33,105 bases of DNA from a candidate division GN15 bacterium. Its GTDB lineage: Bacteria > Zixibacteria > MSB-5A5 > GN15 > FEB-12. A model generated the notes under the pieces. The model was not told where the DNA came from and did not search any database. It saw only the letters and a program-made list of their open reading frames with translations. Made by a program: the position numbers and the translations under genes. Location: assembly GCA_014727815.1 (NCBI GenBank), contig WJMS01000209.1:1-33105 (forward strand), written 5' to 3'. Positions 1 through 15,856 of this stretch are shown piece by piece. The number at the start of each line of letters is the position of its first letter. The stretch's first letter is position 1.

Positions 1-632
1 CCGACCTTGATCGCTTTCTTGAGCGCATCGGCCGTAACCATCGAACCGCCGACAATAACCTTCCCGGCCATGTCGTCGGTAATCATCTTGTCGTCGAGCA
101 CGGTCGAATTGTCTTTGGCGGCCATCATGACGGGGCCGGAGGTTTCCCCGCCGATACCGAAAATGCCCTGCACGAATGACGCGACACAGGTCACGACAAC
201 CCCTTCGTTTTCGATCACCTCGGTGACCTCACCGGTGACATACGCTTTGACCTCGACGGGGGTTGGCTCGCCGCGCTGCAGGACCTGGCCGGTGACGGTC
301 GAGATTGACTCGATGGTGCCGTCGATCGTGGCCGCACAGCGGGACTTAAAAATCCACAGCGAAACCGACAGGGCGATCTCCTCGCCCTCCTTGATCGGAT
401 CGCCCGGCTTTTTGGTCATGACCAGTTCGAGGTCTTCCGGCGGGATACCGAGCTTGTTGGCGACGTTGATCGGCACGACCGAACCCGGCAGGTGGGTGCG
501 GGCCACGACCGTATCCGGTTCGACCTTGTCGCCCTTTTTGACGATGACATCCCCCTTGAGCGGCAGGATGCGCTGTTTACGAATGACCATCCGGTCGGTT
601 ACTTTGAGACCGGGGGTATAGGCATGACCCAT
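1..632 (-). CDS. Barrel-sandwich (biotinyl/lipoyl-like) hypothetical protein, C-terminus outside window
   Basis: Partial gene: 210 codons are visible and the reading frame leaves the window at base 1. I chose the ATG at 632, preceded by an AGAGGGG ribosome site and beginning MGHAYTPGLKV. Two stretches look like barrel-sandwich hybrid folds: a turn KKGDKVEPDT near residue 32, and a beta-rich run around residues 85-150 containing IDGTIESIS and YVTGEVTEVIENEG, followed by a Gly-rich FGIGGETSGPV segment. Such folds occur in biotin/lipoyl carriers, the RnfC N-terminus and HlyD-type adaptors. No MKM-type biotinylation or lipoylation motif is visible, so a structural role is more likely than a carrier role. 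No signal peptide or membrane helix is seen. It is the third gene of the minus-strand operon after the GlmL-like ATPase and a membrane protein, 19 bp after the latter. The exact family is not recognised. Confidence 0.7.
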   Translation of the reverse strand, partial: MGHAYTPGLKVTDRMVIRKQRILPLKGDVIVKKGDKVEPDTVVARTHLPGSVVPINVANKLGIPPEDLELVMTKKPGDPIKEGEEIALSVSLWIFKSRCAATIDGTIESISTVTGQVLQRGEPTPVEVKAYVTGEVTEVIENEGVVVTCVASFVQGIFGIGGETSGPVMMAAKDNSTVLDDKMITDDMAGKVIVGGSMVTADALKKAIKV

Positions 633-651
633 CAGGAATCCCCTCTGTATT

Positions 652-1449
652 TCACACTACGTCTTTTTTCTTCTTTTTCTTCTGCTGCAATCGTGTCAGC
701 ACCAGGACTATGACGACTATGACCACGCCGATCGCAGCCAGCCAGCCGCCGAGCGGCCACTTGTTTTCGTCCGGTGACTTGGTCACCCGTTCCGGGTCGG
801 CCAGCCGGACCCGTTCTTTGGGCAGCCGTGAGGCGATATCTTCGGTAGACAGTGACCGCGCGATGTTGTAGAAGTCCGAGCGTACCTGCTCGAAAGTTGA
901 GTCGGGCGCGAAGCAGTAGAAGTGGGCGAGGCCGCGTTCGTAGAATTTGACCATATACAGGTCGCGCTGCTGGCCACCATCGGTGCCTTCCAGTTCCGAC
1001 AGCCGCACAAACAACCGTTTGTCCCGATCGAGTACGGGACGGCCGGCCCGGAGATCGTCGAGTGTTTCACCGAGCGAGGCAAACGCAATCTGTTCATCGT
1101 ACACATCGGCCAGGTCGGCTGCAGTCGAGTCCATTTGCCGCCGCGTCAGTTCGCCGACCGTGTCGATTCGGAGGATGACATATTCCTGCTCGTAGAAAGC
1201 GCCGGAATCACTGGCGGCAAGGACCGCTTCATAGTTGTACGCTTCGGGGTTGGCGCCGGCCTGACTGAGAAAGAAATCAACGGTTTCGTAGTCGACCTGT
1301 CTCCAGCTGTTGGGATAGTCGACGTAAAAGCCGCCGTTGAGGGAGACATAGCTGGCCGCGCCGGCCATCGAGGCCAGTGCCAGGACCAAAACGACCGTCC
1401 ACCGGCCGTATCCCCGCATCTTCGGGATGTGTCGGCGTTGTCTGGTCAT
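652..1449 (-). CDS. Exported single-pass membrane protein with PsbP-like sequence motif
   Basis: 265 residues. An N-terminal hydrophobic segment (about 17-33) ending in Ala-rich sequence looks like a signal peptide or anchor. The extracytoplasmic part begins with GGFYVDYPNSW near residue 39, a pattern typical of PsbP-like and related lipid- or stress-associated beta domains. A strong C-terminal helix (about 233-252) is followed by six consecutive lysines, so the protein most likely has its bulk outside and a very short cytoplasmic tail. The start codon directly abuts the stop of the GlmL-like gene, implying translational coupling; an internal Met at residue 11 is an alternative start. It is the middle gene of the three-gene minus operon. 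Its function is unknown. The context suggests a membrane partner of the ATPase, which is inference. Confidence 0.75.
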   Translation of the reverse strand: MTRQRRHIPKMRGYGRWTVVLVLALASMAGAASYVSLNGGFYVDYPNSWRQVDYETVDFFLSQAGANPEAYNYEAVLAASDSGAFYEQEYVILRIDTVGELTRRQMDSTAADLADVYDEQIAFASLGETLDDLRAGRPVLDRDKRLFVRLSELEGTDGGQQRDLYMVKFYERGLAHFYCFAPDSTFEQVRSDFYNIARSLSTEDIASRLPKERVRLADPERVTKSPDENKWPLGGWLAAIGVVIVVIVLVLTRLQQKKKKKKDVV

Positions 1450-3303
1450 CTACTGCTTCAACGCGCCTTCCGGATAGATATTCAGTTCGGTCGCCCACTC
1501 GACAAGGTGCGACACGCGTTCATTCTCGTTGAGAGAAGACAGGTCGAACGGCCGACCGCGACCATCGAGAATAATCCCGACCACACCGCCGTGGATTTCG
1601 CGTTCGACTATCTTGCCGGGGCCGGCGCCGACATCGAAATGCCGCTCCGGTTCGAACCGGGCTTTGACCTTGATTGGCAGGGAATCATCGCCGATGCCCA
1701 ACTCGAACTTCTTCATTTCCAGATAATTGAGTGTGCCACTGACCTGGCCGTCCGGCAGGTCGATCGTGTACTTCATGACCGGGCCACCCTTCTTGGCCTG
1801 ACCCGACGGAGCGATACAGGTGCCGAGGTGGATCAGGCAGTCCTTCTCAAACACTTCCGTTGCCGCCTTCGGCTGTACTTCGGTCAGCACGCCGAGCTGC
1901 GGCATCATAAAGATCGAGTCGACCGCCAGGCGCGTGATCCCTTCGGGCAGGAAGGCATCGATCATCATCAGGGCCGACTGCTGCCGTCGCGGCGCGTGCG
2001 AAAGCACCCCGCCCGAGCCGATCAGCATGTCGAGGGTCATCATGTTGACGATGGTTTTGCCCGATGCGCTCTGTTCGAAGGCATCGGCGATCGTCCGCTG
2101 CTGCTGGACACCCTTGAGCACGGTGGCGAAGTTCTTATGCTGGACGAAGGCCAGGCGGAGCGCCTCGCGGGCGATTGCCTGCTCGAAAATCAGCTCTTCC
2201 ATCGACTGCGGAATAGTTGTCGGCCGGATCATTTTGTTTTTGACACGGTTGCGCAGGTCGCGCTCATCCATCACGAACGGCACCCAGCGCATCACCATCG
2301 GCAGCGTCGCCTCGGCAAAGACGTTTGAAATCGAGTAGGACATGCCCAGGTTGGCCGACACGGTGCGGTTGAAGACCGGTTCGTCGTCGGGCATGAAGAC
2401 CGAGAAGACGTCGGTGGTGGCGCCGCCGATATCGACCCCGACCGCCTCGATGCCGTACTGCTTGGCAATTGTCTGAATGATAAGGCCGACCGCACCCGGG
2501 GTCGGCATGATCGGCGCGTCAGTCCAGGACATCAGCTTCTTGTAGCCCGGCGCCTGAGCCATCACGTGTTCCATGAACAGTTCGTGGATTTCTTCACGAG
2601 CCGGCCCGAGGTTTTCCCGTTCGAGGACCGGACGAAGGTTGTCGACCGAGCGGAGGTCGACCTTTTCCGCCAGCACCTTTTCGACTTCGACCGTGGCGTT
2701 TTTGTTGCCGGCGTAGATGATCGGCAGCTGGTAGCTGGAGCCGAGGCGGGGGCGAGGGTCGGCTGCTGAGACCAGCTCGGCCAGCTCGACCACGTGGGTA
2801 GTGGTGCCGCCGTCGATGCCGCCGGAGAGCAGGATCATGTCGGGACGGAGATGGCGAATTCGTTCGATCTGCTGGTGGGGCAGGCGCTTGTCGTTCGAGG
2901 CGATGACGTCCATCACGATCGCCCCGGCGCCCAGTGCGGCACGCTCGGCCGACTCAGCCGTCATCGATCGGACCACACCCGCCACCATCATCTGCAACCC
3001 ACCGCCGGCCGACGAGGTGGAGATGTAGACATCGGTGCCGACATCGCCCTTGGCCGGGGTGATAAATTTACCGTTCTCATCGAGAATCTTGCGACCGGAG
3101 AGTTCTTCTAATTCACCGACCGCGTTGAGCACACCCATGGTGACGTCCTCGAACGGCGCCTCAACCGTCGTCGGCGCCTCACCGCGCGTCGTCTGGCGAT
3201 ACTCGCCATTGACGTACTCGATAAGAATCGCCTTGGTGGTGGTCGAGCCACAGTCGGTTGCAACGATGATTTTAATGTCGTCCGGATTATCGAATTTAGC
3301 CAT
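1450..3303 (-). CDS. GlmL/MutL-family ASKHA ATPase
   Basis: 617 residues, longer than the roughly 460-residue clostridial GlmL. The ASKHA (actin/Hsp70/sugar kinase) phosphate-1 loop is DCGSTTTK at residues 17-24. The second phosphate motif VGVDIGGATTDVFS lies near residues 286-299. Other family signatures are TSSAGGGLQMMVAGVV and LLSGGIDGG. The family is named for the accessory protein of B12-dependent methylaspartate (glutamate) mutase, thought to act as a chaperone or reactivase. No glmS or glmE mutase subunit is in this window, so the name should not be read as function. The gene is preceded by a consensus promoter and a leader of about 98 nt; no strong ribosome site is visible before the ATG. 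It heads a minus-strand operon with a membrane protein and a barrel-sandwich protein, and it diverges from the triplicated membrane cluster. The family call is confident; the role is open. Confidence 0.88.
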   Translation of the reverse strand: MAKFDNPDDIKIIVATDCGSTTTKAILIEYVNGEYRQTTRGEAPTTVEAPFEDVTMGVLNAVGELEELSGRKILDENGKFITPAKGDVGTDVYISTSSAGGGLQMMVAGVVRSMTAESAERAALGAGAIVMDVIASNDKRLPHQQIERIRHLRPDMILLSGGIDGGTTTHVVELAELVSAADPRPRLGSSYQLPIIYAGNKNATVEVEKVLAEKVDLRSVDNLRPVLERENLGPAREEIHELFMEHVMAQAPGYKKLMSWTDAPIMPTPGAVGLIIQTIAKQYGIEAVGVDIGGATTDVFSVFMPDDEPVFNRTVSANLGMSYSISNVFAEATLPMVMRWVPFVMDERDLRNRVKNKMIRPTTIPQSMEELIFEQAIAREALRLAFVQHKNFATVLKGVQQQRTIADAFEQSASGKTIVNMMTLDMLIGSGGVLSHAPRRQQSALMMIDAFLPEGITRLAVDSIFMMPQLGVLTEVQPKAATEVFEKDCLIHLGTCIAPSGQAKKGGPVMKYTIDLPDGQVSGTLNYLEMKKFELGIGDDSLPIKVKARFEPERHFDVGAGPGKIVEREIHGGVVGIILDGRGRPFDLSSLNENERVSHLVEWATELNIYPEGALKQ

Positions 3304-3557: not shown

Positions 3558-3586
3558 TTGACTTGCCTGGGGGGGCCGCCTAAATT
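3558..3586 (+). promoter_or_regulatory. Sigma70-type promoter of the 12-gene membrane operon
   Basis: -35 TTGACT (3558-3563), 17-nt spacer, -10 TAAATT (3581-3586). The predicted start is near 3593, which leaves about 150 nt of leader before the first gene at 3746. Confidence 0.7.
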
Positions 3587-3590
3587 GCGC

Positions 3591-3691
3591 ACCGTTCGCT
3601 GGGAACGGTTGTATTTTCCCGCTTTCGCGCAGTGACGGCAGTTGAGATTTATGTCCTCAGCATTGGACAAATGCCACGCTTGTCCGTCACT
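3591..3691 (+). promoter_or_regulatory. Structured 5' leader, possible cis-regulatory RNA
   Basis: Complementary segments visible in the leader: hairpin ACCGTTC (3591-3597) with GAACGGT (3603-3609); a long-range pair AGTGAC (3631-3636) with GTCACT (3686-3691); and, directly stacked on the 3' side of that pair, GGACAA (3665-3670) with TTGTCC (3680-3685). I do not recognise a known riboswitch. No run of U follows the stems, so an intrinsic attenuator is not evident. Confidence 0.35.
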
Positions 3692-3745
3692 TTCAGTTGT
3701 AGCTGCAGGCAGGTGTGGATCGATCATCGGTAAGGATAATGTAGC

Positions 3746-5011
3746 TTGAAACGGCCACCACAGAAGACCACCCGTCGGATCGTACTGCTCGCTCTGCTGG
3801 CGATTGCCGCTTTCGCGCTGGCGGTCCCGGCGCAGACCACCGACCCATCGGAACCGGTCGCCGACACCCTCCTTCCCGATACATCCGCCATCACGCCCTC
3901 GCAGGCCCCAGCACCTGTCCCATCTGTGACAGTCAAAGACAACCCGAACGACAATGGCGGCGCCATCCGGATCACCTGGGAGCTCTCTCCGGCCGATACG
4001 GCCGGCGGCCTCGTGGCCGGCTACAACGTGTACCGGGCCGACAGCGAAACCGGCGAATTCCGGCCGGTGGCCGATGCGCCTTCCGGGACCGCCTTTGCCA
4101 CCGATAACCGGGTCGAAAACGGCAAGGATTACTACTACAAAGTCACCGCGTACAGCCAGTACATTGATGCCGGAGAAGACAAGGTTCAGGTCCAGTCGAG
4201 CGGTCAGGTGTACGGGCCGGTTCAGGCCAGCTGGCAGGTCTTCAATATGGATCGCCTGATCTGCCTGATCCTGGTGCTGACCGTCAGCGGGTCGATCATT
4301 CACTTCATCCGCAAAGCCCGGCGGGGCGGCGCGATTTATGTCCGCAAGATTGGTGGTATCGACGCCGTTGAAGAAGCGGTCGGTCGCGCCACCGAGATGG
4401 GTAAAAAGATTTTCTACATTCCCGGTATTCAGGACATGAACGATGTCCAGACGATTGCCGGGATTGCTATTCTGGGCCGGGTCGCGGAGAAGGCAGCCGA
4501 ATACGAGACGTGGCTGGAAGTGCCGGTGTCGAAGTCGCTGGTGATGGTGACCGCGCGCGAGACGATGAAAGAAGCGTATGCCAAGATGGGTCGCCCGGAT
4601 AATTTCCAGGAGAACCAGGTCCACTACCTCACCGACGACCAGTTTGGCTATGCTGCGGCGATCGACGGTATGGTCGTTCGTGAAAAGCCGGCCACCATCT
4701 TCTATATGGGGGCGTTTTTCGCGGAATCGTTGATTCTGGCTGAAACCGGCAACGCCGCCGGGGCCATTCAGATCGCCGGCACTGCCATGCCCTCGCAGCT
4801 GCCGTTTTTTATCGCAGCGTGTGACTTTACCCTGATCGGTGAGGAGCTGTTTGCGGCGTCGGCCTATCTTTCCGGCGAACCGCGGCAGCTTGGCTCGTTG
4901 AAAGGGCAGGACGTCGGTAAGGCGATCTTCTTGATTCTGATTATCGTGGGAATTATTTTCGCCACCCTGAACATTTACGATCTGAGTCCCTATATCAAGG
5001 TGGGGCAATAG
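3746..5011 (+). CDS. Module 1 protein A: FN3 domain membrane protein with conserved (probably DUF6754) domain
   Basis: 421 residues from a TTG start; the codon just upstream in frame is TAG and AAGGA lies 9 nt upstream, so TTG is the only sensible start. Layout: signal peptide 1-30 (RRIVLLALLAIAAF core, cleavage after PAQ); Pro/Thr-rich linker; fibronectin type III domain about 58-165 (GYNVYRADSETG, YYYKVTAYS); transmembrane helix 171-188; conserved domain 197-392; C-terminal helix 393-410. If the signal peptide is used, FN3 is outside and the conserved domain is cytoplasmic. The conserved domain contains GRATEMGK, FFAESLILAETG and CDFTLIGEEL (C359, D360, E366, E367). I believe this is the family called DUF6754 but could not check. 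It is the first gene of the operon, followed by B1 after 27 bp. No enzyme motif is recognised; function unknown. Confidence 0.85.
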   Translation: MKRPPQKTTRRIVLLALLAIAAFALAVPAQTTDPSEPVADTLLPDTSAITPSQAPAPVPSVTVKDNPNDNGGAIRITWELSPADTAGGLVAGYNVYRADSETGEFRPVADAPSGTAFATDNRVENGKDYYYKVTAYSQYIDAGEDKVQVQSSGQVYGPVQASWQVFNMDRLICLILVLTVSGSIIHFIRKARRGGAIYVRKIGGIDAVEEAVGRATEMGKKIFYIPGIQDMNDVQTIAGIAILGRVAEKAAEYETWLEVPVSKSLVMVTARETMKEAYAKMGRPDNFQENQVHYLTDDQFGYAAAIDGMVVREKPATIFYMGAFFAESLILAETGNAAGAIQIAGTAMPSQLPFFIAACDFTLIGEELFAASAYLSGEPRQLGSLKGQDVGKAIFLILIIVGIIFATLNIYDLSPYIKVGQ

Positions 5012-5038
5012 GAAAGGATGCCGGCAGGCGACTGAACC

Positions 5039-5707
5039 ATGCGCAGAGAAGTACCCCTGATCATCACCTCCATCGCCGGACTTGTCTTTGCGATCAGCTT
5101 CTTCATCCCCCTTCTGGGTGATGCGCAGAACCGTTTTTCGGACTGGGTCTCGATTGTCCAGTCGTTTGCGGTCTGGCTCGGCCTGCTGAACCTGACCAAG
5201 GTGTCGCTGGAGAAGATCACGCGCAAGCGTGAGGGCTGGCAGTACGCCATCCTGACCGTCGTTTCGCTGGTTATCATGCTGGCTATTGGCATGTTTGATG
5301 GCTTCTCGGGGCTGGCGCAGGATCCGCCGGTCTCGTATCGCGAACCGGGTACGAACTTCGACTGGATGTTCCGGTATGTGTACACGCCACTGACCTCGAC
5401 CATGTTTGCCATGCTGGCGTTTTTTGTCGCGTCGGCTTCCTACCGCGCCTTCCGCGCACGCAATTTCGAGGCGACCCTGTTGCTGGTGGCCGGCTTCTTT
5501 GTCATGGGCGGACGGGTGCCGCTGTTTGACCTGTTGATCCGCTGGTTCACCGATTATCCGTTGTTCAATCAGTTTGCCGACTGGATCATGACCTATCCCA
5601 ATACGGCCGGCCAACGGGCCATTATGATCGGTATTGCCCTGGGTATTATGTCATCGTCACTACGCATCATTCTCGGCATTGAACGCTCACACGTGGGAGG
5701 CCAATAA
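5039..5707 (+). CDS. Module 1 protein B: six-helix membrane protein
   Basis: 222 residues. Hydrophobic helices at about 5-25, 35-54, 67-88, 116-136, 144-165 and 190-212. Signatures shared with the other two B proteins are the N-terminus MRR(E/Q)(V/L)P, a basic loop (RKREGW near residue 62), the STMFAMLAFF...SYRAFRAR block before and after residue 130, and a C-terminal GQRAI...LRIILGIER block. Conserved arginines next to helix ends suggest a packed multi-subunit interface rather than a simple anchor. There is no recognised transporter or enzyme family. The gene lies 27 bp after A1 and 2 bp before C1, consistent with one transcript and probable assembly with the products of its module. Confidence 0.85.
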   Translation: MRREVPLIITSIAGLVFAISFFIPLLGDAQNRFSDWVSIVQSFAVWLGLLNLTKVSLEKITRKREGWQYAILTVVSLVIMLAIGMFDGFSGLAQDPPVSYREPGTNFDWMFRYVYTPLTSTMFAMLAFFVASASYRAFRARNFEATLLLVAGFFVMGGRVPLFDLLIRWFTDYPLFNQFADWIMTYPNTAGQRAIMIGIALGIMSSSLRIILGIERSHVGGQ

Positions 5708-5709
5708 GC

Positions 5710-6609
5710 ATGGCTAGTACGATAGCCACCATACTGCTGATCCTCGTGGGCGTTTCGCTGTTGTATATCGCCTACCGGACCATCACCGGCCGCCCGGTGG
5801 AACGCCGGATCGTGTTCATCTACATTGCCCTGGCAGTCGCCCTGCCGCTCTTTATGACGCTGCCGGCGCCGGTGCAGGTAACGCCTGACGTTGAGCGGCT
5901 GTATGACGCGCTCGAGGAGCTTCGGCCGGGTTCGAAAGTGTTGGTGTCCTTCGACTACGATCCGCCGTCAGCGCCGGAGCTGCAGCCGATGGCAGTCGCC
6001 TTCATGAAGTATGCGTTCAAACATGACCTGCGGGTCATTGTCATGGGCCTCTGGCCGCAGGGACCGCAGCTGGCCAACCTGGCTATTGAAGAGGCGATGG
6101 CAGACCAGGAGATTGCCGCCAAAAACCTCGAGTACGGAGTGGATTACGTCAATCTCGGTTTTCAGTCGGGCAACGAATTCGTGATTCAGGCGATGGGAAC
6201 GCAGTTCAAGCGGATGTTCCCGCAGGATGACCGCCGTATCCCGTACGATTCGATTCCCCTGATGGCCAATGTCACCAACTTCAGCAATGTCGACTTTGTC
6301 TTCAACCTGAGTTCGGGCAAACCGGGGACCATCGAGTGGGTGCAGATTGCGGTCGACCGCTTCGGCGCCACCATGGGCGCCGGCAACACCGCCGTGCAGG
6401 CGCCGCAGGTCTACCCCTACCTGCGCGCCAAACAGTTGCATGGACTGCTCGGCGGTATGAGCGGGGCGGCCGAATTCGAGAAGATTGTCGAGGAACCGGG
6501 TGACGGCACGACCTTCATCCTGTCGCAGATGTTTGCCCACGCAATCGTCATTTTGTTTGTGATAATCGGTAACGCCGCGTTCTTCACCGAACGCCGGAAG
6601 CAGGAGTAG
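5710..6609 (+). CDS. Module 1 protein C: membrane-anchored protein with conserved soluble domain
   Basis: 299 residues with a GGGAGG ribosome site lying inside the end of B1. Two N-terminal helices (about 4-23 and 33-52), a soluble alpha/beta domain at about 60-270, and a C-terminal helix at about 274-292 with a basic tail. Blocks shared with C2 and C3: FDYDP...ELQPMA near residue 79; GVDY.NLG near 142; MFP...P near 167; APQVYPYL near 235; GLLGGMSGAAEFE near 248. The alternation of strands and helices suggests a Rossmann-like fold, which is inference. No catalytic signature is recognised. If the first helix enters from the cytoplasm, the two-helix hairpin returns the chain there, so the domain may be cytoplasmic. 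Function unknown; it probably partners A1, B1 and D1. Confidence 0.83.
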   Translation: MASTIATILLILVGVSLLYIAYRTITGRPVERRIVFIYIALAVALPLFMTLPAPVQVTPDVERLYDALEELRPGSKVLVSFDYDPPSAPELQPMAVAFMKYAFKHDLRVIVMGLWPQGPQLANLAIEEAMADQEIAAKNLEYGVDYVNLGFQSGNEFVIQAMGTQFKRMFPQDDRRIPYDSIPLMANVTNFSNVDFVFNLSSGKPGTIEWVQIAVDRFGATMGAGNTAVQAPQVYPYLRAKQLHGLLGGMSGAAEFEKIVEEPGDGTTFILSQMFAHAIVILFVIIGNAAFFTERRKQE

Positions 6610-6622
6610 ACGGACGGAGAGC

Positions 6623-7270
6623 ATGGATATATCAAACTTCCTGGCCGCCGTACTGACCCTGGGTATCTTTTCGTTCCTGTACAAGGACAACCCGGTCTAT
6701 CGGGCGTGTGAAGCGATCTTCGTGGGCGTTTCGGCCGGGTACTGGGCGATTGTCTTCTTCTTCGACAATCTCCAGAAGAAGTTCTGGGAAGGTGTGTTTC
6801 CGCCCGATGGGTCCGCCGGTGATCACCTGCTCTGGTTCGGCGCCATCCTCGGCGTGCTCATGTTGTTCCGGCTCTCCAGCAAGATTGGCTGGATCGCCCG
6901 CTGGCCGCTGGCCTTTATTGTCGGCGCCACGGCCGGTCTGTACATGATCACCTACTTCGTATCCAACGCTATGAACCAGGTGGCCGATACGATGCTGTCG
7001 TTGATCGTGGTCAACGATGTGACCGGCAGTATTATCTGGACACAGACGATCGGCGCCCTGGTGGTGGCAGTCGGCGTGATTTCCGGACTGGTCTACTTCT
7101 TCTTCTCGAAGGAACACAAGGGTGTCTTTGGCGCCACGGCCAAGGTTGGCATCTGGTTTCTGATGATTACGTTCGGTGCGTCGTTCGGCTATACGGTGAT
7201 GAGTCGTATGTCGCTGCTGATCGGGCGCATGAGTTTCCTGTTTAGAGATTGGCTGGGCTTGATAGGATGA
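6623..7270 (+). CDS. Module 1 protein D: polytopic membrane protein
   Basis: 215 residues with a GGACGGAG ribosome site. About six hydrophobic segments cover nearly the whole chain. Blocks shared with D2 and D3: FSFLYKDNP(V/F)Y near residue 15; (F/V)VGVSAGYW near 32; GWIARWPLAFIVG near 89; YFFFSKEHKGVFG near 154; and the C-terminal FGASFGYTVM...DWLGLI. This is the shortest D: it lacks the extra N-terminal helix of D2 and the extra C-terminal helix of D3, so it may represent the core. The charged conserved KDN and SKEH loops between helices are candidate functional sites. No family is recognised. It ends module 1; A2 starts 29 bp later. Confidence 0.83.
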   Translation: MDISNFLAAVLTLGIFSFLYKDNPVYRACEAIFVGVSAGYWAIVFFFDNLQKKFWEGVFPPDGSAGDHLLWFGAILGVLMLFRLSSKIGWIARWPLAFIVGATAGLYMITYFVSNAMNQVADTMLSLIVVNDVTGSIIWTQTIGALVVAVGVISGLVYFFFSKEHKGVFGATAKVGIWFLMITFGASFGYTVMSRMSLLIGRMSFLFRDWLGLIG

Positions 7271-7299
7271 CGGCGTAACCCGCCGCGGATAAACTGCCG

Positions 7300-8616
7300 G
7301 TGCCGCCGGCTATCGTCAACTTCATCGCAGGACAGGTTGGGGTACAGCAGCTCGTGGTTTCCGGTACATCGACAACAGCGCAGACGCCGCCGTCACACCC
7401 CCGGGCAGCCTTTCTCGTTCTTCTCATCATTATATCCTTTACGATCAGCGCCATCGCCCAGGAGCCGGCCGATACGGCCGCCTTTGATTTGCCGGATGAG
7501 CGTCCGGCCCCGCCGACGTCTGTCGTTGTCACCGATTTCAAGTACGATGCCGGCAACCGGGTCGACATCACCTGGGTGCCCTCGATCGATGACCAGCCCG
7601 AACTGACCCTTGTCGACGGCTACACCGTCTATCGCTCGGCCAACGGGGGCGACTACAAGCTTCTCGATTCATTGCTGCCGGGCATCAGCATGTACGAAGA
7701 CGAGGAAGTGACGCCCGATTCGGTCTACACGTATTATGTCGCCACCATGTCCGGCAAGGATACGGTCCAGTCGGTGGTGACGCAGGAGATTCGCCCCGAG
7801 TGGGAACTGGTCAACTTCGATCTCGCCTGGCTGTTCGTGATCGCCGTAATCATCTCCGGCTCGATTGTCTGGTTTATCTGGCGGGCGCGGGCCGGCGCCG
7901 ATTTGTTTGTGCGCAAGATTGCGGGGCTCGATGCGGTCGATGAGGCAATCGGCCGCGCTACCGAGATGGGCCGACCGATCCTGTTCATCCCCGGTATCCT
8001 CGACATGGATGATGTCCAGACGATTGCCGGCCTGACTATCCTCGGCCGCGTCGCCAAACAGATCGCCGACTACGACACCCGTATCCGCATGCCGGTGTCA
8101 CGATCGCTGGTGATGACCGCGGCGCGCGAGACGATCAAGGCGTCGTATCAGGTTGCGGGACGTCCCGATGCCTACTCCGATGACATGGTCAGTTATGTGA
8201 CCGACGAGCAGTTTGGTTATGTCGCGGCGGTTGACGGCATCATGGTGCGCGAGAAACCGGCGACGATCTTCCTGCTGGGCGCGTTTTTTGCCGAGTCACT
8301 CATTCTCGCCGAGACCGGCAACTCGATCGGTGCGATTCAGATTGCCGGCACCGCCCGACCGGCGCAGCTGCCGTTCTTTATCGCCGCGTGCGACTTCACC
8401 CTGATCGGCGAGGAGCTGTTTGCAGCCTCGGCCTATCTGTCCGGTGAACCGAAACAGCTTGGTTCGCTGAAGGGACAGGATGTCGGCAAGGGGATAGCCA
8501 TGCTGGCCATCATTCTCGGCATGGTGGCGGTGACGATGGCGACGGCGTTTGAGATTGATTTCTTCCAGATGATTGCGGACGGCTTAAACCAGGTCTTTTC
8601 GACCAAGGCGGAATAG
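7300..8616 (+). CDS. Module 2 protein A: FN3 domain membrane protein with conserved (probably DUF6754) domain
   Basis: 438 residues from the GTG at 7300. The signal-peptide core (AFLVLLIIISFTIS) begins only near residue 37, so a later start is likely; the in-frame GTG at 7354 would give 420 residues and a normal 17-residue n-region. Neither has a clear ribosome site. FN3 domain about 70-165 (VDGYTVYRSANGG), helix about 175-193, conserved domain about 203-400, then a C-terminal helix. In the 69-residue block from FFAESLIL to GQDVGK it matches A1 at 64 positions, far higher than in the FN3 part. The same C, D and E residues of CDFTLIGEEL are kept. It is followed by B2 after 6 bp. Function unknown; A1 and A2 appear to be recent or strongly constrained paralogues. 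Confidence 0.83.
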   Translation: MPPAIVNFIAGQVGVQQLVVSGTSTTAQTPPSHPRAAFLVLLIIISFTISAIAQEPADTAAFDLPDERPAPPTSVVVTDFKYDAGNRVDITWVPSIDDQPELTLVDGYTVYRSANGGDYKLLDSLLPGISMYEDEEVTPDSVYTYYVATMSGKDTVQSVVTQEIRPEWELVNFDLAWLFVIAVIISGSIVWFIWRARAGADLFVRKIAGLDAVDEAIGRATEMGRPILFIPGILDMDDVQTIAGLTILGRVAKQIADYDTRIRMPVSRSLVMTAARETIKASYQVAGRPDAYSDDMVSYVTDEQFGYVAAVDGIMVREKPATIFLLGAFFAESLILAETGNSIGAIQIAGTARPAQLPFFIAACDFTLIGEELFAASAYLSGEPKQLGSLKGQDVGKGIAMLAIILGMVAVTMATAFEIDFFQMIADGLNQVFSTKAE

Positions 8617-8622
8617 CAGCGC

Positions 8623-9297
8623 ATGCGACGACAGGTACCACTTTTCATCACGTTTTTTGTCGGCACCCTGCTGATCGTGTCGGTCTTCATCCCACCGATG
8701 GAGAACCTCGGTGAAGACTTCACGCTGTTCTTCGATATCATTGCCGTCTTTGCGTTTTTCCTCGGTGGCGGCAACCTGCTGCGCGTCCATTTGACCAAGC
8801 TGTATCGAAAGAGCCCGGATTGGGGCTTCTCGGTCGTGACGGTGGTTGGCTTCTTCCTGATGCTTGCGGCCGGCCTGTTCAAGATCGGCAACCCGGGTGA
8901 CATCTCGGCCTCGGTGACCGCCGAGGGGTCGATGTTCCAGACGATGTTCAACAACGTGGTGCTGCCGCTGCAATCGACGATGTACGCCCTGCTGGCCTTT
9001 TTCATCGCGTCGGCCTCCTACCGCGCCTTCCGTGCGAAGAACCGCGAGGCGACTATCCTGCTCGTTGCGGCGTTCATTATTCTGCTCGGTCGCACGCCGT
9101 TCGGGATGATGCTGACGGCGTGGATTCCCGACTCCTGGTCGGTATTGCAGGTGCCCAACCTGGCGATCTGGATTATGAATTCGCCCAACCTGGCCGGTCA
9201 GCGCGCGATTCTGATCGGGATCGGGCTCGGCGTGGTCTCCATGTCACTGCGGATCATTCTCGGTATTGAACGCACGTACCTGGGGGATGACCGATGA
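8623..9297 (+). CDS. Module 2 protein B: six-helix membrane protein
   Basis: 224 residues, starting MRRQVPLFIT, the B-family N-terminus. The same six-helix plan as B1, with STMYALLAFFIASASYRAFRA in the middle and the GQRAILIGIGLG...RIILGIER block at the end. The loop after helix 2 reads LTKLYRKSPDW, like the basic loop of B1. Its last codons overlap the start of C2 by four bases (ATGA), a strong sign of translational coupling. The closest similarity within the window is to B1; B3 is more distant. No recognised family outside this cluster. Confidence 0.85.
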   Translation: MRRQVPLFITFFVGTLLIVSVFIPPMENLGEDFTLFFDIIAVFAFFLGGGNLLRVHLTKLYRKSPDWGFSVVTVVGFFLMLAAGLFKIGNPGDISASVTAEGSMFQTMFNNVVLPLQSTMYALLAFFIASASYRAFRAKNREATILLVAAFIILLGRTPFGMMLTAWIPDSWSVLQVPNLAIWIMNSPNLAGQRAILIGIGLGVVSMSLRIILGIERTYLGDDR

Positions 9298-10256
9298 TAC
9301 CGTTCGAGCCGATTCGTTTGTTCGCGTTTGGCGGATTCAACGTGCCGATCGTCATCTCGCTGCTGATTATCGGGGGCGGCATGCTCTGGCTGCTGATCCG
9401 CTCGCTCAAAGCCAAAGAGGTTGACCGGCGGATCGTGTTCGTCTTCATCTTCGCGGCCGTCTCGGCGCCGCTGCTGTTCGAGATTACGTTCGACGAGACG
9501 GCAACCCCGATCGTGAAAGGCGTCTTCGAGAAGATCGAGAATATGCCGGAGCGCTCGCGCATTGTGATCGCCTTTGACTTCGACCCGGCCATGGCGCCGG
9601 AAGTGCAGCCGATGGCAAACGCGGTGATCCGCCACGCCCTCGCCAAGAATCACCGCCTGATCTTCATTTCGCTCTGGGCGACCGGTCAGGCGCTGATGGA
9701 CAAGACCATCAGCGAGATCATTCCAGCGGAGTTCCCGCAGAAGCAGGATGGCATCGACTACGTCTCGCTCGGGTACAAGGCGGGCAACGAGGGCGTGCTC
9801 AATGTGATTGTATCCAACGTCAAGAAGATGTTTCCGACCGATGTCAACGGCGTGCCGCTGACCGATATCGCGATTTTCAACGGGGTGCGCTCGATGAAAG
9901 ATGTCGACATGGTCATGGCGGTCGGTGGCGGCAAGCCCGGACCGAAAGAGTGGGTGTTGTTTGTCGGCGATGCGCCGGGTGGGCCGCCGGTGGCGGTCGG
10001 CGTGGCCGCTGTTGTAGCGCCGCAGATGTATCCGTACTATCCCAAGCAGGTGCTCGGTATTCTCGGTGGGATCAAAGGCGCCGCCGAGTATGAATCCGAA
10101 TTGCTCCACAACTATCCGCGTTTCGCGGAGCAGGATACACCTGGCCTGCGCATGATGGGCCCGCAGACGCTGGCCCATGTCGTTATCATGGCCTTCATCA
10201 TATTCGGTAACCTGGCCTTCTTTATCGGTGGGCGGCACAAGGAGAAGCGGCTGTGA
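9294..10256 (+). CDS. Module 2 protein C: membrane-anchored protein with conserved soluble domain
   Basis: 320 residues, the longest C. Two N-terminal helices (about 16-36 and 47-64), soluble domain about 72-290, C-terminal helix about 296-313. It keeps the FDFDP...EVQPMA block, GIDYVSLGYKAGNEG, MFPTDVNGVPL, VGGGKPGPKEW, APQMYPYY and GILGGIKGAAEYE. It overlaps both neighbours by four bases (B2 upstream, D2 downstream), so B2-C2-D2 are translationally linked and probably made in fixed proportion. No catalytic motif is recognised. The glycine-rich VGGGKPGP turn could bind a ligand, which is speculation. Confidence 0.83.
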   Translation: MIPFEPIRLFAFGGFNVPIVISLLIIGGGMLWLLIRSLKAKEVDRRIVFVFIFAAVSAPLLFEITFDETATPIVKGVFEKIENMPERSRIVIAFDFDPAMAPEVQPMANAVIRHALAKNHRLIFISLWATGQALMDKTISEIIPAEFPQKQDGIDYVSLGYKAGNEGVLNVIVSNVKKMFPTDVNGVPLTDIAIFNGVRSMKDVDMVMAVGGGKPGPKEWVLFVGDAPGGPPVAVGVAAVVAPQMYPYYPKQVLGILGGIKGAAEYESELLHNYPRFAEQDTPGLRMMGPQTLAHVVIMAFIIFGNLAFFIGGRHKEKRL

Positions 10257-11065
10257 AGCGATCATCCCTGCTTGTCCTCGCCGTCGTCGTAATCCTCTTC
10301 GCGATCAGCTGGATCCTCAAGGCCAACCAGCTCTCGGCGACCGAGGAGAACTATATCCTCGAGGCTTTCCTGATCACATTCGCGGCCTTTCTGACCCTGT
10401 CGGTACTTTCCTTCCTTTACAAAGACAATCCGTTCTACAAATTTGCCGAGCATCTCTTCGTTGGTGTCTCGGCGGCATTCTGGATGTGTCTCGGCTTCTG
10501 GTCGACCCTGGTCAAGAACCTGATTCCGCGGCTTTCGGAAGGACTGTCCGAGTTTTTCAACGAGCCGTACATGCCGGGCGACTACAACTTCTTCTTCTGG
10601 ATCCCGGTGATCCTGGGTATCCTGCTGTTGATGCGCCTGTCGAAGGAGCATGGCTGGATCGCTCGCTGGCCGCTGGCCTTTATTGTCGGGACAACCGCCG
10701 GCCTGAATTTCGTGCGCTATCTGCGCTCCGACTTCATCGAGCAGATCTCGGCGACCTTTGTGCCGCTGCTTATCGAGTGGCAGGGTGTGGGGCATTTCTT
10801 CAGCAACTTCAATCTGGCAATTGACGGTCAGTTCGTCATGATGCTGTCCAACTGGGTGATTTTTGTCGGTGTCATGTGCGGCCTGATTTACTTCTTCTTC
10901 TCCAAGGAACATACCGGTGTCTTCGGGACGGCATCCCGGGTGGGGATCTGGATTCTCATGATCACTTTCGGGGCATCGTTCGGCTACACCGTGATGGGCC
11001 GTATTTCGCTGCTGGTTGGGCGGCTGACGTTTCTCTTCAAGGACTGGCTGGGCCTGATCAGTTGA
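10253..11065 (+). CDS. Module 2 protein D: polytopic membrane protein with extra N-terminal helix
   Basis: 270 residues from a GTG start that overlaps the C2 stop (GTGA). Relative to D1 it has an N-terminal extension of about 40 residues containing one more hydrophobic helix (residues 5-20). The shared D blocks follow: LSFLYKDNPFY near residue 50, FVGVSAAFW, GWIARWPLAFIVG, YFFFSKEHTGVFG, and FGASFGYTVMGRISLLVGR near the end, closing with DWLGLI. The extra helix would move the N-terminus to the other side of the membrane compared with D1. It ends module 2; 43 bp separate it from A3, the largest gap in the operon. Function unknown. Confidence 0.83.
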   Translation: MKRSSLLVLAVVVILFAISWILKANQLSATEENYILEAFLITFAAFLTLSVLSFLYKDNPFYKFAEHLFVGVSAAFWMCLGFWSTLVKNLIPRLSEGLSEFFNEPYMPGDYNFFFWIPVILGILLLMRLSKEHGWIARWPLAFIVGTTAGLNFVRYLRSDFIEQISATFVPLLIEWQGVGHFFSNFNLAIDGQFVMMLSNWVIFVGVMCGLIYFFFSKEHTGVFGTASRVGIWILMITFGASFGYTVMGRISLLVGRLTFLFKDWLGLIS

Positions 11066-11108
11066 CGAGTGGAATTACTGAGTAACTCCCCGTACGTGTG
11101 GAGGAGCT

Positions 11109-12701
11109 ATGACATATATGCTACGGATAATGCTACTGCTGGTGCTCCTGGCGGGGGTCAGCGGACTGGCGCAGGATCAACCGGTTGCCGACACGGCGGC
11201 CGCTGATACCGCCACCGTCGATCCACCGGCGCCGGTCACCAACCTGACCGGTCAGGATCGGGACAACGACCACGGCCACGCTATCGAGTTGAGCTGGACG
11301 CCGTCGGTCGATGACCTCGAGAACCCGGCCGGCGACCGCAGCGTCATGCGCTATCGCGTCATGATGTGGCGGCCGGCTTTTGCGTTTCGGGTCGACACCC
11401 TGCGGCAGATGTATGAGATGGTCCGGAACAGCTACAAGCCGATCCGCGTGTACAAGCCGCTGGTCGACTCGGCGCTGTCGATGGTCGAACAGGGGGTGAC
11501 CTCGGTGGCCCAGCTGCCGTTCAAGGTCCAGCTTCCCGCCGATGTCGATATGACCGATGTACCCCAGGATCTCCTGCGGCAGACGCTGGAGGATACTCTC
11601 GAGACGATGGTCGGCCAGGTCGAGGTCTCCAAGGACTCGGTCAAGACGTTCCGGTCGACCTTCCTCGATTCGGTCGATGCCCTGACGGCCGCGTATGCGA
11701 CCTATCCCAACAATGGCCGATGGGATTCGATTGGGGCCGAACCGCCCGGCAGCGGCAACTTCCGTCATGCCGGTTCCAAGGATGAATTCTCGCCCGATTT
11801 CCTGCCCGATCACACCGACCTGTATTATCGGGTCGATGCGGTGACGATTGATCCCGATGTCTACGCCGAGTCGGAGATAGTCGGTCCGATCCAGTCGTCC
11901 GGGCAGTGGTACAATACCGGCCGCACGGTGGTGCTGGTCTCGGTGATCATCTTCACCATCTTCACGATCCTGTTCGTGCAGCAGGCCCGGGGCGGCAAAG
12001 AGCTCTATGTCCGTCCGCTGGCGGGAATTGAGGCGGTCGACGATGCGATCGGTCGCGCCACCGAGATGGGCAAGCCGATTCTCTACGTGCTCGGGCTCGG
12101 CGCGGCGTCGGATATCGCCACGATTGCATCGTTTACGATTCTCAGCCGCGTCGCCAAGCGCGTGGCCGAGTACCAGACCGACCTGATCGTGCCGACGTAT
12201 GACCCGATCGTCATGACCGTCGCCCAGGAAGTGGTCAAGTCGTCGTACATGGACGCCGGGCGTCCCGACGATTACCACGAAGACATGGTGTATTTCGTTA
12301 CCCAGTCGCAGTTCGCGTACGTGGCCGCGGTCAACGGTGTCATGCTGCGCCAGCTGCCGGCCACCAATGTCTACATGGGTAAGTTCTACGCCGAGTCGCT
12401 GATTCTCGCGGAGACCGGCGCCCTGGCCGGCTCGATCCAGATTGCCGGTACCGATGAGATCGCCCAGATACCGTTCTTCGTGGTCGCCTGTGACTTCACC
12501 CTGATCGGTGAAGAACTCTACGCGGCCTCGGCGTATCTCGGCGGCGAACCGATCCTGCTCGGCTCGCTCAAGGCCCAGGACTACGCCAAGGCGTTGTTCG
12601 TGATCAGCGCCATTGTCGGCTTTGTCTTTCTGGTCCTGCACGATATAACCGGGGTCGAGTGGTTCACCAACTTCAAAGAATGGTACCGGGTCTCGGACTA
12701 G
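11109..12701 (+). CDS. Module 3 protein A: FN3-like membrane protein with helical insertion
   Basis: 530 residues, with a strong GGAGGAG ribosome site. Signal peptide 1-21 (cleavage near GLA-QDQ). An FN3-like domain starts near residue 40 (LSWTPSVDD at 61), but about 120 residues (93-215) are inserted. The insertion is rich in charged helix-forming sequence (QTLEDTLETMVGQ, VSKDSVKTF) and looks like a coiled-coil or helical bundle. The last FN3 strands resume near 237 (DLYYRVDAVTI). Helix about 272-290, conserved domain about 298-500, C-terminal helix about 502-520. In the 69-residue core block it matches A2 at about 51 positions and keeps CDFTLIGEEL intact. It is thus the divergent paralogue of the three. 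The insertion is on the exported side, so it probably gives this subunit a distinct outside partner. Function unknown. Confidence 0.83.
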   Translation: MTYMLRIMLLLVLLAGVSGLAQDQPVADTAAADTATVDPPAPVTNLTGQDRDNDHGHAIELSWTPSVDDLENPAGDRSVMRYRVMMWRPAFAFRVDTLRQMYEMVRNSYKPIRVYKPLVDSALSMVEQGVTSVAQLPFKVQLPADVDMTDVPQDLLRQTLEDTLETMVGQVEVSKDSVKTFRSTFLDSVDALTAAYATYPNNGRWDSIGAEPPGSGNFRHAGSKDEFSPDFLPDHTDLYYRVDAVTIDPDVYAESEIVGPIQSSGQWYNTGRTVVLVSVIIFTIFTILFVQQARGGKELYVRPLAGIEAVDDAIGRATEMGKPILYVLGLGAASDIATIASFTILSRVAKRVAEYQTDLIVPTYDPIVMTVAQEVVKSSYMDAGRPDDYHEDMVYFVTQSQFAYVAAVNGVMLRQLPATNVYMGKFYAESLILAETGALAGSIQIAGTDEIAQIPFFVVACDFTLIGEELYAASAYLGGEPILLGSLKAQDYAKALFVISAIVGFVFLVLHDITGVEWFTNFKEWYRVSD

Positions 12702-12713
12702 GAGGATTGACTG

Positions 12714-13361
12714 ATGCGACGACAATTACCATTTATCCTGGTCTTCCTCTCCGGCGCCTTCATGGTATTCCAGTATTTCGTGCCGCACGAAAGTTCGGAG
12801 TTCGTCTACGAGTTCCTGCTGGACTGGTTGACCATCATTGGCGGATTTGCGATGGTGCTCGGTATCTGGTCGCTGATCCGCGTGTCTTACGATAAGATCC
12901 AGCGCAAACGGGAGAACTGGGGCTACTCGGTTATCACCCTGGCCGGGTTGTTCTCGATGATCTTCTTCGGCATTACGAACTGGCAGGATGGTTTCGGCTT
13001 CTACATCCTCCAGGCCGACGGGTTGAACAATCCGATGTTTGTGCATTTCTTCGATTACATCCTGATTCCGATTCAGGCGACGATGTTCTCGCTGCTGGCC
13101 TTCTTCATTGCCTCGGCGGCCTATCGTGCCTTCCGTGCCCGAAGCGTGATCGCGTCGCTGCTGCTGCTGGCGGCGTTGATCGTGATGATGCGGTTCAACC
13201 CGCTGTTCGGGGCGTGGATCGAGGATGTCGCCAACTGGCTGATGAACGTGCCCAACCTGGCCGCCCAGCGGGCGATCGTGATCGGTCTCGGACTCGGCAT
13301 GGTCGCCACCGCCCTCAAGATCATTCTCGGGATCGAACGCGGCTACATGGGGCAGGGGTAA
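12714..13361 (+). CDS. Module 3 protein B: six-helix membrane protein
   Basis: 215 residues, ribosome site GGAGG. N-terminus MRRQLPF as in the B family. It keeps the six-helix plan, the basic loop (KIQRKRENWGYS), the middle block QATMFSLLAFFIASAAYRAF, and the end block AQRAIVIGLGLG...KIILGIER. It is the most divergent B: ST is replaced by AT before the middle block and LRIILG becomes LKIILG. It lies 12 bp from both A3 and C3. No recognised family beyond this cluster. Confidence 0.84.
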   Translation: MRRQLPFILVFLSGAFMVFQYFVPHESSEFVYEFLLDWLTIIGGFAMVLGIWSLIRVSYDKIQRKRENWGYSVITLAGLFSMIFFGITNWQDGFGFYILQADGLNNPMFVHFFDYILIPIQATMFSLLAFFIASAAYRAFRARSVIASLLLLAALIVMMRFNPLFGAWIEDVANWLMNVPNLAAQRAIVIGLGLGMVATALKIILGIERGYMGQG

Positions 13362-13373
13362 GGAGAGAAGACT

Positions 13374-14249
13374 ATGACACTATTTGATCGGTTGATGAGA
13401 CTTGACCGGCGCTGGGTCTTCCTCTTCCTTGCGGCGGTCTGTATCGCGGGCTACTACATCGATTACTCGATTCCCATTCGGGTGACCAATGAAGTCCGCA
13501 GTATCTACAAGTTCATCGATTCCCTCCCCGAGGGGGATATCGTTTTCGTGGCGATCGACTACGATCCCTCGAACCAGGCGGAGCTGCATCCCATGACCTA
13601 CGCGATCATGGAACATGCCTTCCGCAACAACTTGAAAGTGATGTTTACGGCGCTCTCGCAGAACGGCCCCGGGATGGCCGACCAGGCGATACGAGATATA
13701 ACCGACTCGGTCGCACTGGATCGGACCTACAACGGGCAACTCTACGAGGGCCGGGAGATCAAAAACGGGGTCGACTACACCTTCCTCGGCTACAAGCCAT
13801 ACTACGCGATCATCATCCTGAGTATGGGCCAGAACTTCCGGATCTCCTTCCCGACCGACTACTACGGCACGCCGCTCGATTCGCTGCCGATGATGCGCGG
13901 GGTGCTCAACTACGACGATGTTGCCTGTGTGATCGACCTTTCGGGCGGGAATATAACCGACGCCTGGATATCGTACGGGCAGGGCAGATACAACTTCCCG
14001 ATGGCGCTCGGCCTGACCGGCGTGATGACCGCCCAGTACTACCCGTACCTGAACTCCGGACAGATTTTCGGAATCATGGGCGGGATGCTCGGGGCGGCCC
14101 AATATGAAAGGCTGGCCGATAACCCCGGCCTGGCGATCGACGGTATGCGGGTGCAGTTACCGGCGCATATCGTCATTGTCCTGTTCATCATCATTGGCAA
14201 TATCGGATACTTCATGAGCCGGCGACGCCAGGCGATGGAAGGGAGGTAA
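13374..14249 (+). CDS. Module 3 protein C: conserved soluble domain with a single N-terminal helix
   Basis: 291 residues, ribosome site AAGGAGAG. Unlike C1 and C2, only one N-terminal helix is visible (about 13-30); the chain then enters the conserved domain (IDYDPSNQAELHPM, GVDYTFLGYKP, SFPTDYYGTPLDSLPMM, DLSGGN, YYPYL, GIMGGMLGAAQYE). A C-terminal helix follows at about 265-283 with a basic tail. Losing one helix means that, if the soluble domain sits on the same side as in C1 and C2, the N-terminus must be on the other side. The usual APQ before YPYL is TAQY here. Function unknown; it is the third paralogue of the C family. Confidence 0.83.
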   Translation: MTLFDRLMRLDRRWVFLFLAAVCIAGYYIDYSIPIRVTNEVRSIYKFIDSLPEGDIVFVAIDYDPSNQAELHPMTYAIMEHAFRNNLKVMFTALSQNGPGMADQAIRDITDSVALDRTYNGQLYEGREIKNGVDYTFLGYKPYYAIIILSMGQNFRISFPTDYYGTPLDSLPMMRGVLNYDDVACVIDLSGGNITDAWISYGQGRYNFPMALGLTGVMTAQYYPYLNSGQIFGIMGGMLGAAQYERLADNPGLAIDGMRVQLPAHIVIVLFIIIGNIGYFMSRRRQAMEGR

Positions 14250-14255
14250 CGGGTT

Positions 14256-15065
14256 ATGGATTTCACTACCTTTTTGTGGACGACCCTGGGCGCCTTCCTG
14301 ACACTGGCGACCTTCTCCTTCTTGTACAAGGATAACCCCTTCTACAAGCTGGCCGAACATCTCGTGGTCGGCGTCTCGGCGGGCTACTTCATGATCATCG
14401 TCTGGCACGGCACGATGGTGCCGAACCTGTTCAATAAGCTGCTCGACGGTGACTGGTTCCTGCTCTTTTTGAACTCGAACCAGTGGTGGTATGTCTTCCC
14501 CGGCATACTGGGGGTCCTGATGTGGACCCGTTTCTCGCGCAAGTACGGCTGGATATCGCGCTGGCCGATGGCGCTGTATATCGGTATCGCGGCCGGTGTG
14601 GCGGTACCGCTGGAAATGTCGAACAAGGTCAACAAGCAGTTGGTAGCCACGATGGTGGATATTGAATGGTCGAATTTCTTCGGCGCCGGTATCTGGGATC
14701 CGTTTTCGGGTTTTGCCAACCTGCTGATCTTCGTGGGCGCCATCTCCGGCCTGATCTACTTCTTCTTCTCCAAGGCTCACACCGGGGCCTTTGGCGGGGT
14801 GGCCAAGCTGGGGATATGGACGTTGATGATCGGTTTCGGCGCCTCGTTCGGGTTCACCGTCATGGCGCGTATTTCGCTGTTCATCAATCGATTACAGTAC
14901 CTCGATCAGAACTGGGCGCAGACGGCGTTTGATTCGACCAATCCCAATTACAACACGGGATTCCAGTTGGTCTTCTGGCTGGTGGTGCTGATGCTTCTGG
15001 CTTACGCGGTGTGGGAATTTATTGCCTATCTGCGTCGACGCGGGGAAGCATCGACACCTGAGTAA
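14256..15065 (+). CDS. Module 3 protein D: polytopic membrane protein with extra C-terminal helix
   Basis: 269 residues, ribosome site GGGAGGT. D-family blocks: FSFLYKDNPFYKLAEHL near residue 24, VVGVSAGYF, GWISRWPMALYIG, YFFFSKAHTGAFG (SKEH is SKAH here), FGASFGFTVMARISLF. After the point where D1 and D2 stop (DWLGLI, here DQNWAQ), it continues for about 45 residues with another helix (LVFWLVVLMLLAYAVWEF) and a basic-acidic tail. It is the last gene of the operon; a strong intrinsic terminator begins 27 bp after its stop codon. Function unknown. Confidence 0.83.
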   Translation: MDFTTFLWTTLGAFLTLATFSFLYKDNPFYKLAEHLVVGVSAGYFMIIVWHGTMVPNLFNKLLDGDWFLLFLNSNQWWYVFPGILGVLMWTRFSRKYGWISRWPMALYIGIAAGVAVPLEMSNKVNKQLVATMVDIEWSNFFGAGIWDPFSGFANLLIFVGAISGLIYFFFSKAHTGAFGGVAKLGIWTLMIGFGASFGFTVMARISLFINRLQYLDQNWAQTAFDSTNPNYNTGFQLVFWLVVLMLLAYAVWEFIAYLRRRGEASTPE

Positions 15066-15091: not shown

Positions 15092-15127
15092 TCCCGCCCG
15101 ATTTTTTCAATCGGGCGGGATTTTTTT
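15092..15127 (+). terminator. Intrinsic terminator of the 12-gene operon
   Basis: Perfect 12-bp stem TCCCGCCCGATT (15092-15103) with AATCGGGCGGGA (15109-15120), loop TTTTC, followed by seven T (15121-15127). Confidence 0.95.
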
Positions 15128-15412: not shown

Positions 15413-15502
15413 GCGTGCGGAGTGAGGGACCTTCACAAACAGCCACACGAAGCCAGGGAAAGGGTAGCAACCACGTAGTACACATGGAAAGTGAGGTGGC
15501 TA

Positions 15503-15856
15503 ATGCCGCGGACGGAAAAAAGTGCCGAGGCCAAAGCCCGCGCCGACTCCGTGTCACCAGGCGCTTCAGCTACGGATCAGCAGAAGCCAAAATCGAAACT
15601 CTCGACCGCTGAGGCCCGTCGCGAATACCAGCGGCGGTACTACCAGATGCATAAGGAAAAAGCAAAGGAGTATCAGCGTCAGTATAACTTGACGCACAAG
15701 AAAAAGGCTCGCGGACGCGGCAAATCGAGCTTTGCGGCGCCCCGCGAGGTGGTCCGCTCGACCTTTAATACTTCCGATCTCATGCACGCCCCGGTTGAAA
15801 AGACGGTGCGGATGCTCGAGCAGATCATCAAGGGTGAACGATTCTTCACCATGTGA
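15503..15856 (+). CDS. Small basic protein with tandem 15-residue repeat
   Basis: 117 residues from the ATG at 15503, chosen because GAGGTGG lies 3 nt upstream of it; the GTG at 15491 lacks such a site. The N-terminal 40 residues are Ala/Ser/Lys-rich and probably disordered. Residues 41-55 and 56-70 form a tandem repeat (EYQRRYYQMHKEKAK and EYQRQYNLTHKKKAR, 9 of 15 identical), followed by a basic KARGRGK stretch that could bind nucleic acid. The C-terminal third (VEKTVRMLEQIIKGE) is a probable amphipathic helix. No signal peptide or membrane helix. It is monocistronic, between its own promoter and an intrinsic terminator. YQRxYY...HKEK-type sequence occurs in various small DNA-associated proteins, but I recognise no defined family. 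The function is not known. Confidence 0.7.
   Translation: MPRTEKSAEAKARADSVSPGASATDQQKPKSKLSTAEARREYQRRYYQMHKEKAKEYQRQYNLTHKKKARGRGKSSFAAPREVVRSTFNTSDLMHAPVEKTVRMLEQIIKGERFFTM

Follow-up and report, generated by a model that had tools for sequence, protein, structure and literature searches.

In the 33,105-nucleotide window analysed here (contig WJMS01000209.1, from a candidate division GN15 bacterium of the Zixibacteria), twelve consecutive plus-strand open reading frames at positions 3746–15065 repeat the order of four protein families, which we call A, B, C and D, three times. Our comparisons of sequences indicate that the five A-B-C-D modules of Zixibacteria are ancient lineages evolving as units, and that two further families, F and E, belong to the same system, as judged by synteny, fusion and co-occurrence. 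The reading that we favour, with a confidence that stays somewhat short of even, is that each A-B-C-D set is a membrane complex driven or remodelled by a shared F–E pair, one energiser for all modules.

The BLASTP program sorts the array proteins into four families of three copies, with cross-family matches at noise level. Copies within a family are 31–54% identical, with E values of 1e-39 to 1e-133 (A1–A2 3e-133, A1–A3 1e-93; B1–B2 3e-62, B1–B3 3e-45; C1–C3 7e-61, C1–C2 1e-57; D1–D2 2e-68, D1–D3 2e-51). This agrees with the threefold four-family order that had been read from the sequence alone in an original prediction, whose signature motifs were also located in all three copies: CDFTLIGEEL in A, MRR(E/Q) and ILGIER in B, (F/I)D(Y/F)DP..PM and GAA(E/Q)(Y/F)E in C, and FLYKDNP and YFFFSK in D. 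A1, A2 and A3 match Pfam DUF6754 (PF20539) across the whole domain (380–404 bits for a gathering score of 27 bits; E about 1e-114 to 1e-121), and for the B, C and D proteins of the window no Pfam or NCBIfam match passed the model's cut-off. C gave weak Pfam matches to Radical_SAM, and B to DUF4345 and TMD0_ABC; these were sub-threshold in the members shown and inconsistent between members and were disregarded. Sequence searches of the PDB with A, B, C, D and E gave nothing significant.

The four families also travel together elsewhere. A neighbourhood survey covered 74 loci of more than eight named phyla and yielded 109 complete modules; in these loci, all same-strand adjacencies (376/376) are AB, BC, CD or DA, as in a cyclic order, and the module genes nearly touch (median gaps of 15, 5 and 2 nt). 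Moreover, the pairwise protein distances of A, B, C and D correlate at 0.81–0.86 over 119 modules; for A–B, A–C, A–D and B–D the values are 0.81–0.85, and for these pairs the correlation never exceeded 0.65 when partners were shuffled between modules inside a locus (500 shuffles each). In a tree of the joined A-B-C-D sequences (FastTree, local supports only), array positions 1, 2 and 3 and two stand-alone modules, M4 and M5, are separate old lineages, with full support for the M4 and M5 clades. The module-2 lineage also takes in the single modules that the set contains from Planctomycetota, Neomarinimicrobiota, Gemmatimonadota and Calditrichota.

Searching the genome from which the window derives returned five DUF6754 genes, of which the two outside the window (L006 and L007) are followed by B, C and D and make up two further full modules, with A proteins that have no FN3 part. 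Neither these modules nor the minus-strand genes F, G and E linked to the array had figured in the original prediction. Among named organisms, the best relatives are Candidatus Zixiibacteriota. DUF6754 is present in 132 of the 132 Zixibacteria genomes searched, mostly in 4–6 copies. The larger assemblies that we sampled commonly have a three-module array plus M4 and M5; the deep-branching G010 genome has only two modules. In Cloacimonadota, A occurs in 115/118 genomes, as does E, some of these E matches being only an orphan F–E fusion. Planctomycetota mostly carry one module per genome, and most other phyla one or two. Among 199 Planctomycetota genomes, A was found in 49, E in 47 and D in 48. 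A and E occur together in 44 of these genomes (A alone in five, E alone in three, neither in 147; Fisher p 9e-35) and A and D in 47 (A alone in two, D alone in one, neither in 149; p 5e-42), the p values being uncorrected for kinship.

The AlphaFold model of A1 (pLDDT 90), read together with hydropathy, has transmembrane (TM) segments at residues 168–192 and 379–407 on either side of the cytoplasmic α/β domain, with a signal peptide and FN3 ahead of them. Foldseek matched FN3 domains with this model (e.g. titin A3, E = 9e-6), in line with the exterior FN3 anticipated for A. This exterior part varies widely, from none in M4 and M5 up to about 700 aa in Cloacimonadota, and the DUF6754 domain is about 60–70% identical across phyla (best named matches). 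In the model of C1 (pLDDT 95.7), an α/β domain lies between helices and is predicted to be outside by the positive-inside rule, given its basic N-terminal flank and C-terminal tail. B is predicted to have six TM segments with the N-terminus inside, and D about six, probably with the N-terminus outside. A–D are genuinely an unnamed, jointly inherited membrane module with exterior and interior domains, no named system having been found. The models of A and C share strand/helix order and a TM–α/β–TM layout; profile comparisons were unsupportive and we do not claim homology, and such comparisons gave no support to homology between B and D either. Variants of A were also seen. In one genome (G088; L122, about 8600–10400, i.e. 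contig C1 1645616–1647296), two tandem A genes with open frames of about 290 aa each precede B-C-D. In Cloacimonadota loci L142–L147 the A proteins reach about 930–1010 aa, roughly 700 aa of which are exterior, and in L143, L146 and L147 there is another large A gene after D (A-B-C-D-A).

The minus-strand genes F, G and E (3–3303) are divergent from the array and upstream of it. F scores 433 bits against PF13941 (MutL; gathering score 27), and its ATP-binding motifs DCGSTTTK (phosphate-1), DIGGATTD (phosphate-2) and SGG-LSHAP (adenosine) are at least 95% conserved in 29 sequences. Its only PDB sequence match, a weak one (E = 0.006), is the ASKHA-type protein Ta0583, an actin-like protein. The other part of the truncated E gene was found on contig C269. 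Members of the E family give weak domain matches to biotin_lipoyl (26/30), RnfC_N (15/30; E ≤ 1, best 1e-6) and KOW (9/30); in the members shown, the barrel-sandwich matches reach 20.2 and 17.3 bits for a Pfam cut-off of 25.6, and no cysteine is invariant in the family.

Outside Zixibacteria the system usually makes up a single operon. In Planctomycetota, Fermentibacterota and others, the genes run F-E-A-B-C-D on one strand, often preceded by two small families, I (weakly matching bacterial PH domains) and H (of about 120 aa), and in Neomarinimicrobiota F and E are fused into one protein (L053, L054 and L064). G lies between F and E in seven loci, in Zixibacteria-type loci only. Of 78 good Zixibacteria genomes, 77 have E, mostly as one full-length copy, compared with about five copies of A. 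Some Zixibacteria and a Planctomycetota genome additionally encode orphan F–E fusion paralogues of 820–980 aa with no A-B-C-D genes nearby, and many Cloacimonadota have E matches that resemble this orphan fusion, as judged by ORF length. A MotA/TolQ/ExbB-family gene is situated just past E in several Zixibacteria loci (L089, 4035–4751; also L044 and L069).

We may then consider how such a system could work. A, B, C and D would be the subunits, four in all, of a single membrane complex whose genes make up an indivisible module. A would hold its conserved DUF6754 domain on the cytoplasmic side and its variable FN3-type region outside, C would contribute another exterior α/β domain, and B and D would be six-helix membrane proteins. 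F and E would form one soluble pair serving every module in the cell. The cytoplasmic domain of A would be their docking site, and ATP would be spent on driving, loading or remodelling the complex; FN3 and C, facing outside, would meet a substrate to be transported or remodelled. The five Zixibacterial modules would be old specialised versions of one complex, one of them constantly beside a sugar ABC importer; probably, the several membrane units handle different envelope substrates and share one energiser. A bolder and more tentative possibility is a new class of envelope machine powered by ATP: a single cytoplasmic ASKHA ATPase, with a single barrel-sandwich protein for coupling, would serve as many as five different four-subunit membrane units. 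All Zixibacteria would have such a machine, as would nearly all Cloacimonadota, and it would also occur in Planctomycetota and several further phyla.

Several observations weigh against the favoured reading. F and E are not adjacent to M4, M5 or the Cloacimonadota modules examined, and the idea of a shared energiser therefore rests on copy number and co-occurrence. Foldseek gave no fold relative for the cytoplasmic domain of A, the search being swamped by its FN3 part, and none for C, with no match below E = 1e-3. In addition, the operon is split in some Planctomycetota, with A and E apart from D in Thalassoglobus; relatives of Gimesia and Singulisphaera have the system as one operon.

The neighbours of the stand-alone modules were recognised from their sequences, not by profile search. 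M5 stands head-to-head with a carbohydrate-type ABC importer (a binding protein and two permeases, without an adjacent ATPase gene; L007, L125–L132) in 9/9 genomes from four families, and more remote neighbours are not kept in more distant genomes. This linkage hints at uptake or envelope sugars. Beside M4, the gene for a sugar-phosphate nucleotidyltransferase is kept in eight loci, that for MetK in seven and that for AhcY in six. No ABC ATPase is among the conserved partners (F, E, G, H and I). In Phycisphaerae-type loci (L065, L075, L082, L087 and L106), the fatty-acid synthesis genes PlsX, FabH, FabD and FabG, again recognised by sequence, come after the module. Readings as anti-phage defence or as a mobile element are disfavoured, since PADLOC assigned none of eight proteins to a defence model and the module was not found in plasmids and phages.

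Two alternatives, to each of which we give a minor and about equal share of belief, deserve discussion. The first is that the three or five different A-B-C-D units join in one large hetero-oligomeric envelope assembly, as would suit three modules held in fixed array order across Zixibacteria with all lineages kept. Yet Planctomycetota are mostly single-module, M4 and M5 sit at other loci, and G010 manages with two modules. The original prediction had offered both a complex per set and a single larger assembly of three sets; the former is favoured because most other phyla hold one or two modules, two of the five in this genome are stand-alone, and each module evolves as a unit. The second is that A-B-C-D is a sensor or regulator of transport, in which FN3 and C would sense ligands and A would signal to or gate neighbouring transporters through F and E. 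What speaks for it is the constant company of M5 with the sugar importer, together with an exterior that varies (none to about 700 aa) while the inner domain is highly conserved; on the other hand, the cluster contains no signalling domain or DNA-binding partner, and four conserved subunits, two of them polytopic, exceed what a sensor requires.

An energy-conserving redox or ion-pumping complex in the style of Rnf/Nqr, with E as an RnfC/NqrA-like subunit, is improbable. RnfA and RnfE are a pair of opposite-topology subunits, which the predicted opposite topologies of B and D recall, and E has its weak RnfC_N and NQRA_N matches. However, E lacks an invariant cysteine, where RnfC has Fe–S cluster cysteines, the operon has no Fe–S or flavin protein, B and D show no homology to each other and match no Rnf/Nqr membrane family, and Rnf has no ASKHA ATPase among its parts. 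The membership of F in Pfam MutL could also suggest accessory proteins of B12-dependent glutamate mutase, with F as the MutL/GlmL homologue. F scores only 242 bits against the GlmL NCBIfam equivalog, whose cut-off is 475, and this reading is nearly excluded because, of 129 genomes from the phylum, only five have the mutase E subunit (PF06368) above cut-off, and the genome of the window lacks it. Finally, a recent tandem amplification without functional meaning, for all that the arrangement is tandem, is refuted by the tree, since copies this divergent occupy array positions that are each an ancient clade retained across the phylum.

As for the signals around the array, the strong terminator of the original prediction is there (Table 1). 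A promoter candidate does exist, but it is a weak one, and the structured leader did not hold up: 3560–3746 folds no more strongly than shuffled sequence (z = -0.27). Between the array and a gene for a PEP-utilising enzyme, the window encodes a conserved basic 121-aa protein of unrecognised family (15491–15856), and the same pair is likewise found downstream of the array in other Zixibacteria.

Table 1. Features of the window and, in the last five lines, orphan F–E fusions at other loci (positions within each locus).
Feature	Position	Strand	Remarks
E (partial)	3–632	-	Barrel-sandwich hybrid + KOW protein, family about 375 aa; cut by contig start
G	652–1449	-	265-aa exported protein, weak PsbP-like match, C-terminal TM
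F	1450–3303	-	617-aa MutL-type (PF13941) ASKHA ATPase, extra C-terminal region
Promoter candidate	3558–3586	+	Weak, sigma-70-like; 9/12 consensus match alone
A1	3746–5011	+	Signal peptide, FN3 outside, TM, cytoplasmic DUF6754 α/β domain, TM
B1	5039–5707	+	6-TM protein, N-in
C1	5710–6609	+	TM-anchored exterior α/β domain (predicted), C-terminal TM
D1	6623–7270	+	About 6-TM protein, N-out
A2	7300–8616	+	Module 2, lineage common to single modules of Planctomycetota and others
B2	8623–9297	+	BLASTP grouping
C2	9294–10256	+	BLASTP grouping
D2	10253–11065	+	BLASTP grouping
A3	11109–12701	+	Module 3, enlarged exterior region
B3	12714–13361	+	BLASTP grouping
C3	13374–14249	+	BLASTP grouping
D3	14256–15065	+	BLASTP grouping
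Intrinsic terminator	15092–15127	+	Strong; 12-bp stem, 8 GC pairs, T7 run
Orphan F–E fusion, L137	6968–9808
Orphan F–E fusion, L138	8013–10958
Orphan F–E fusion, L139	8009–10825
Orphan F–E fusion, L140	6563–9355
Orphan F–E fusion, L141	7278–9749

When all members of a phylum retain a gene set, and in several divergent copies, that set is usually central to their cell biology. Here, at least six conserved families of a membrane system without assigned function occur in nearly all members of at least two little-studied phyla. The cultured and sequenced planctomycete Thalassoglobus neptunius carries the system, with its operon split in two; its presence there and in relatives with one operon means that the function can be tested without Zixibacterial isolates. 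The MutL branch of ASKHA ATPases would moreover gain a role outside mutase repair.

For A–D we found no function, fold relative or publication, and the open-licence papers searched contained no mention of DUF6754/PF20539 and no description of the module, though a description could have gone undetected. We consider A-B-C-D with F and E new as a system, whose biochemical activity could yet turn out to be a known one. The Pfam entry that A1, A2 and A3 match describes a domain of unknown function and is silent on B, C, D, E, F and the modules. F shares its ASKHA ATPase domain with MutL/GlmL of methylaspartate mutase (PF13941, NF040745, TIGR01319), but it falls below all equivalog cut-offs, has an extra C-terminal region, and is linked to a membrane module in genomes most of which have no mutase. 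E may resemble RnfC/NqrA, given its weak barrel-sandwich matches, and differs from them in lacking an invariant cysteine, in its KOW-like C-terminus and in having no Rnf/Nqr partners. ECF transporters use one shared energiser with several membrane units, and the arrangement proposed here, in which several paralogous membrane units of a cell share a single ATPase pair, would be analogous to this, although the cluster has no ABC ATPase and no sequence relation was found. PilM and FtsA, for their part, are actin-like ATPases of envelope machines; F belongs to the MutL family and matched no PilM/FtsA family, yet, as an ASKHA-fold cytoplasmic ATPase paired with membrane proteins, it may offer a parallel to them.

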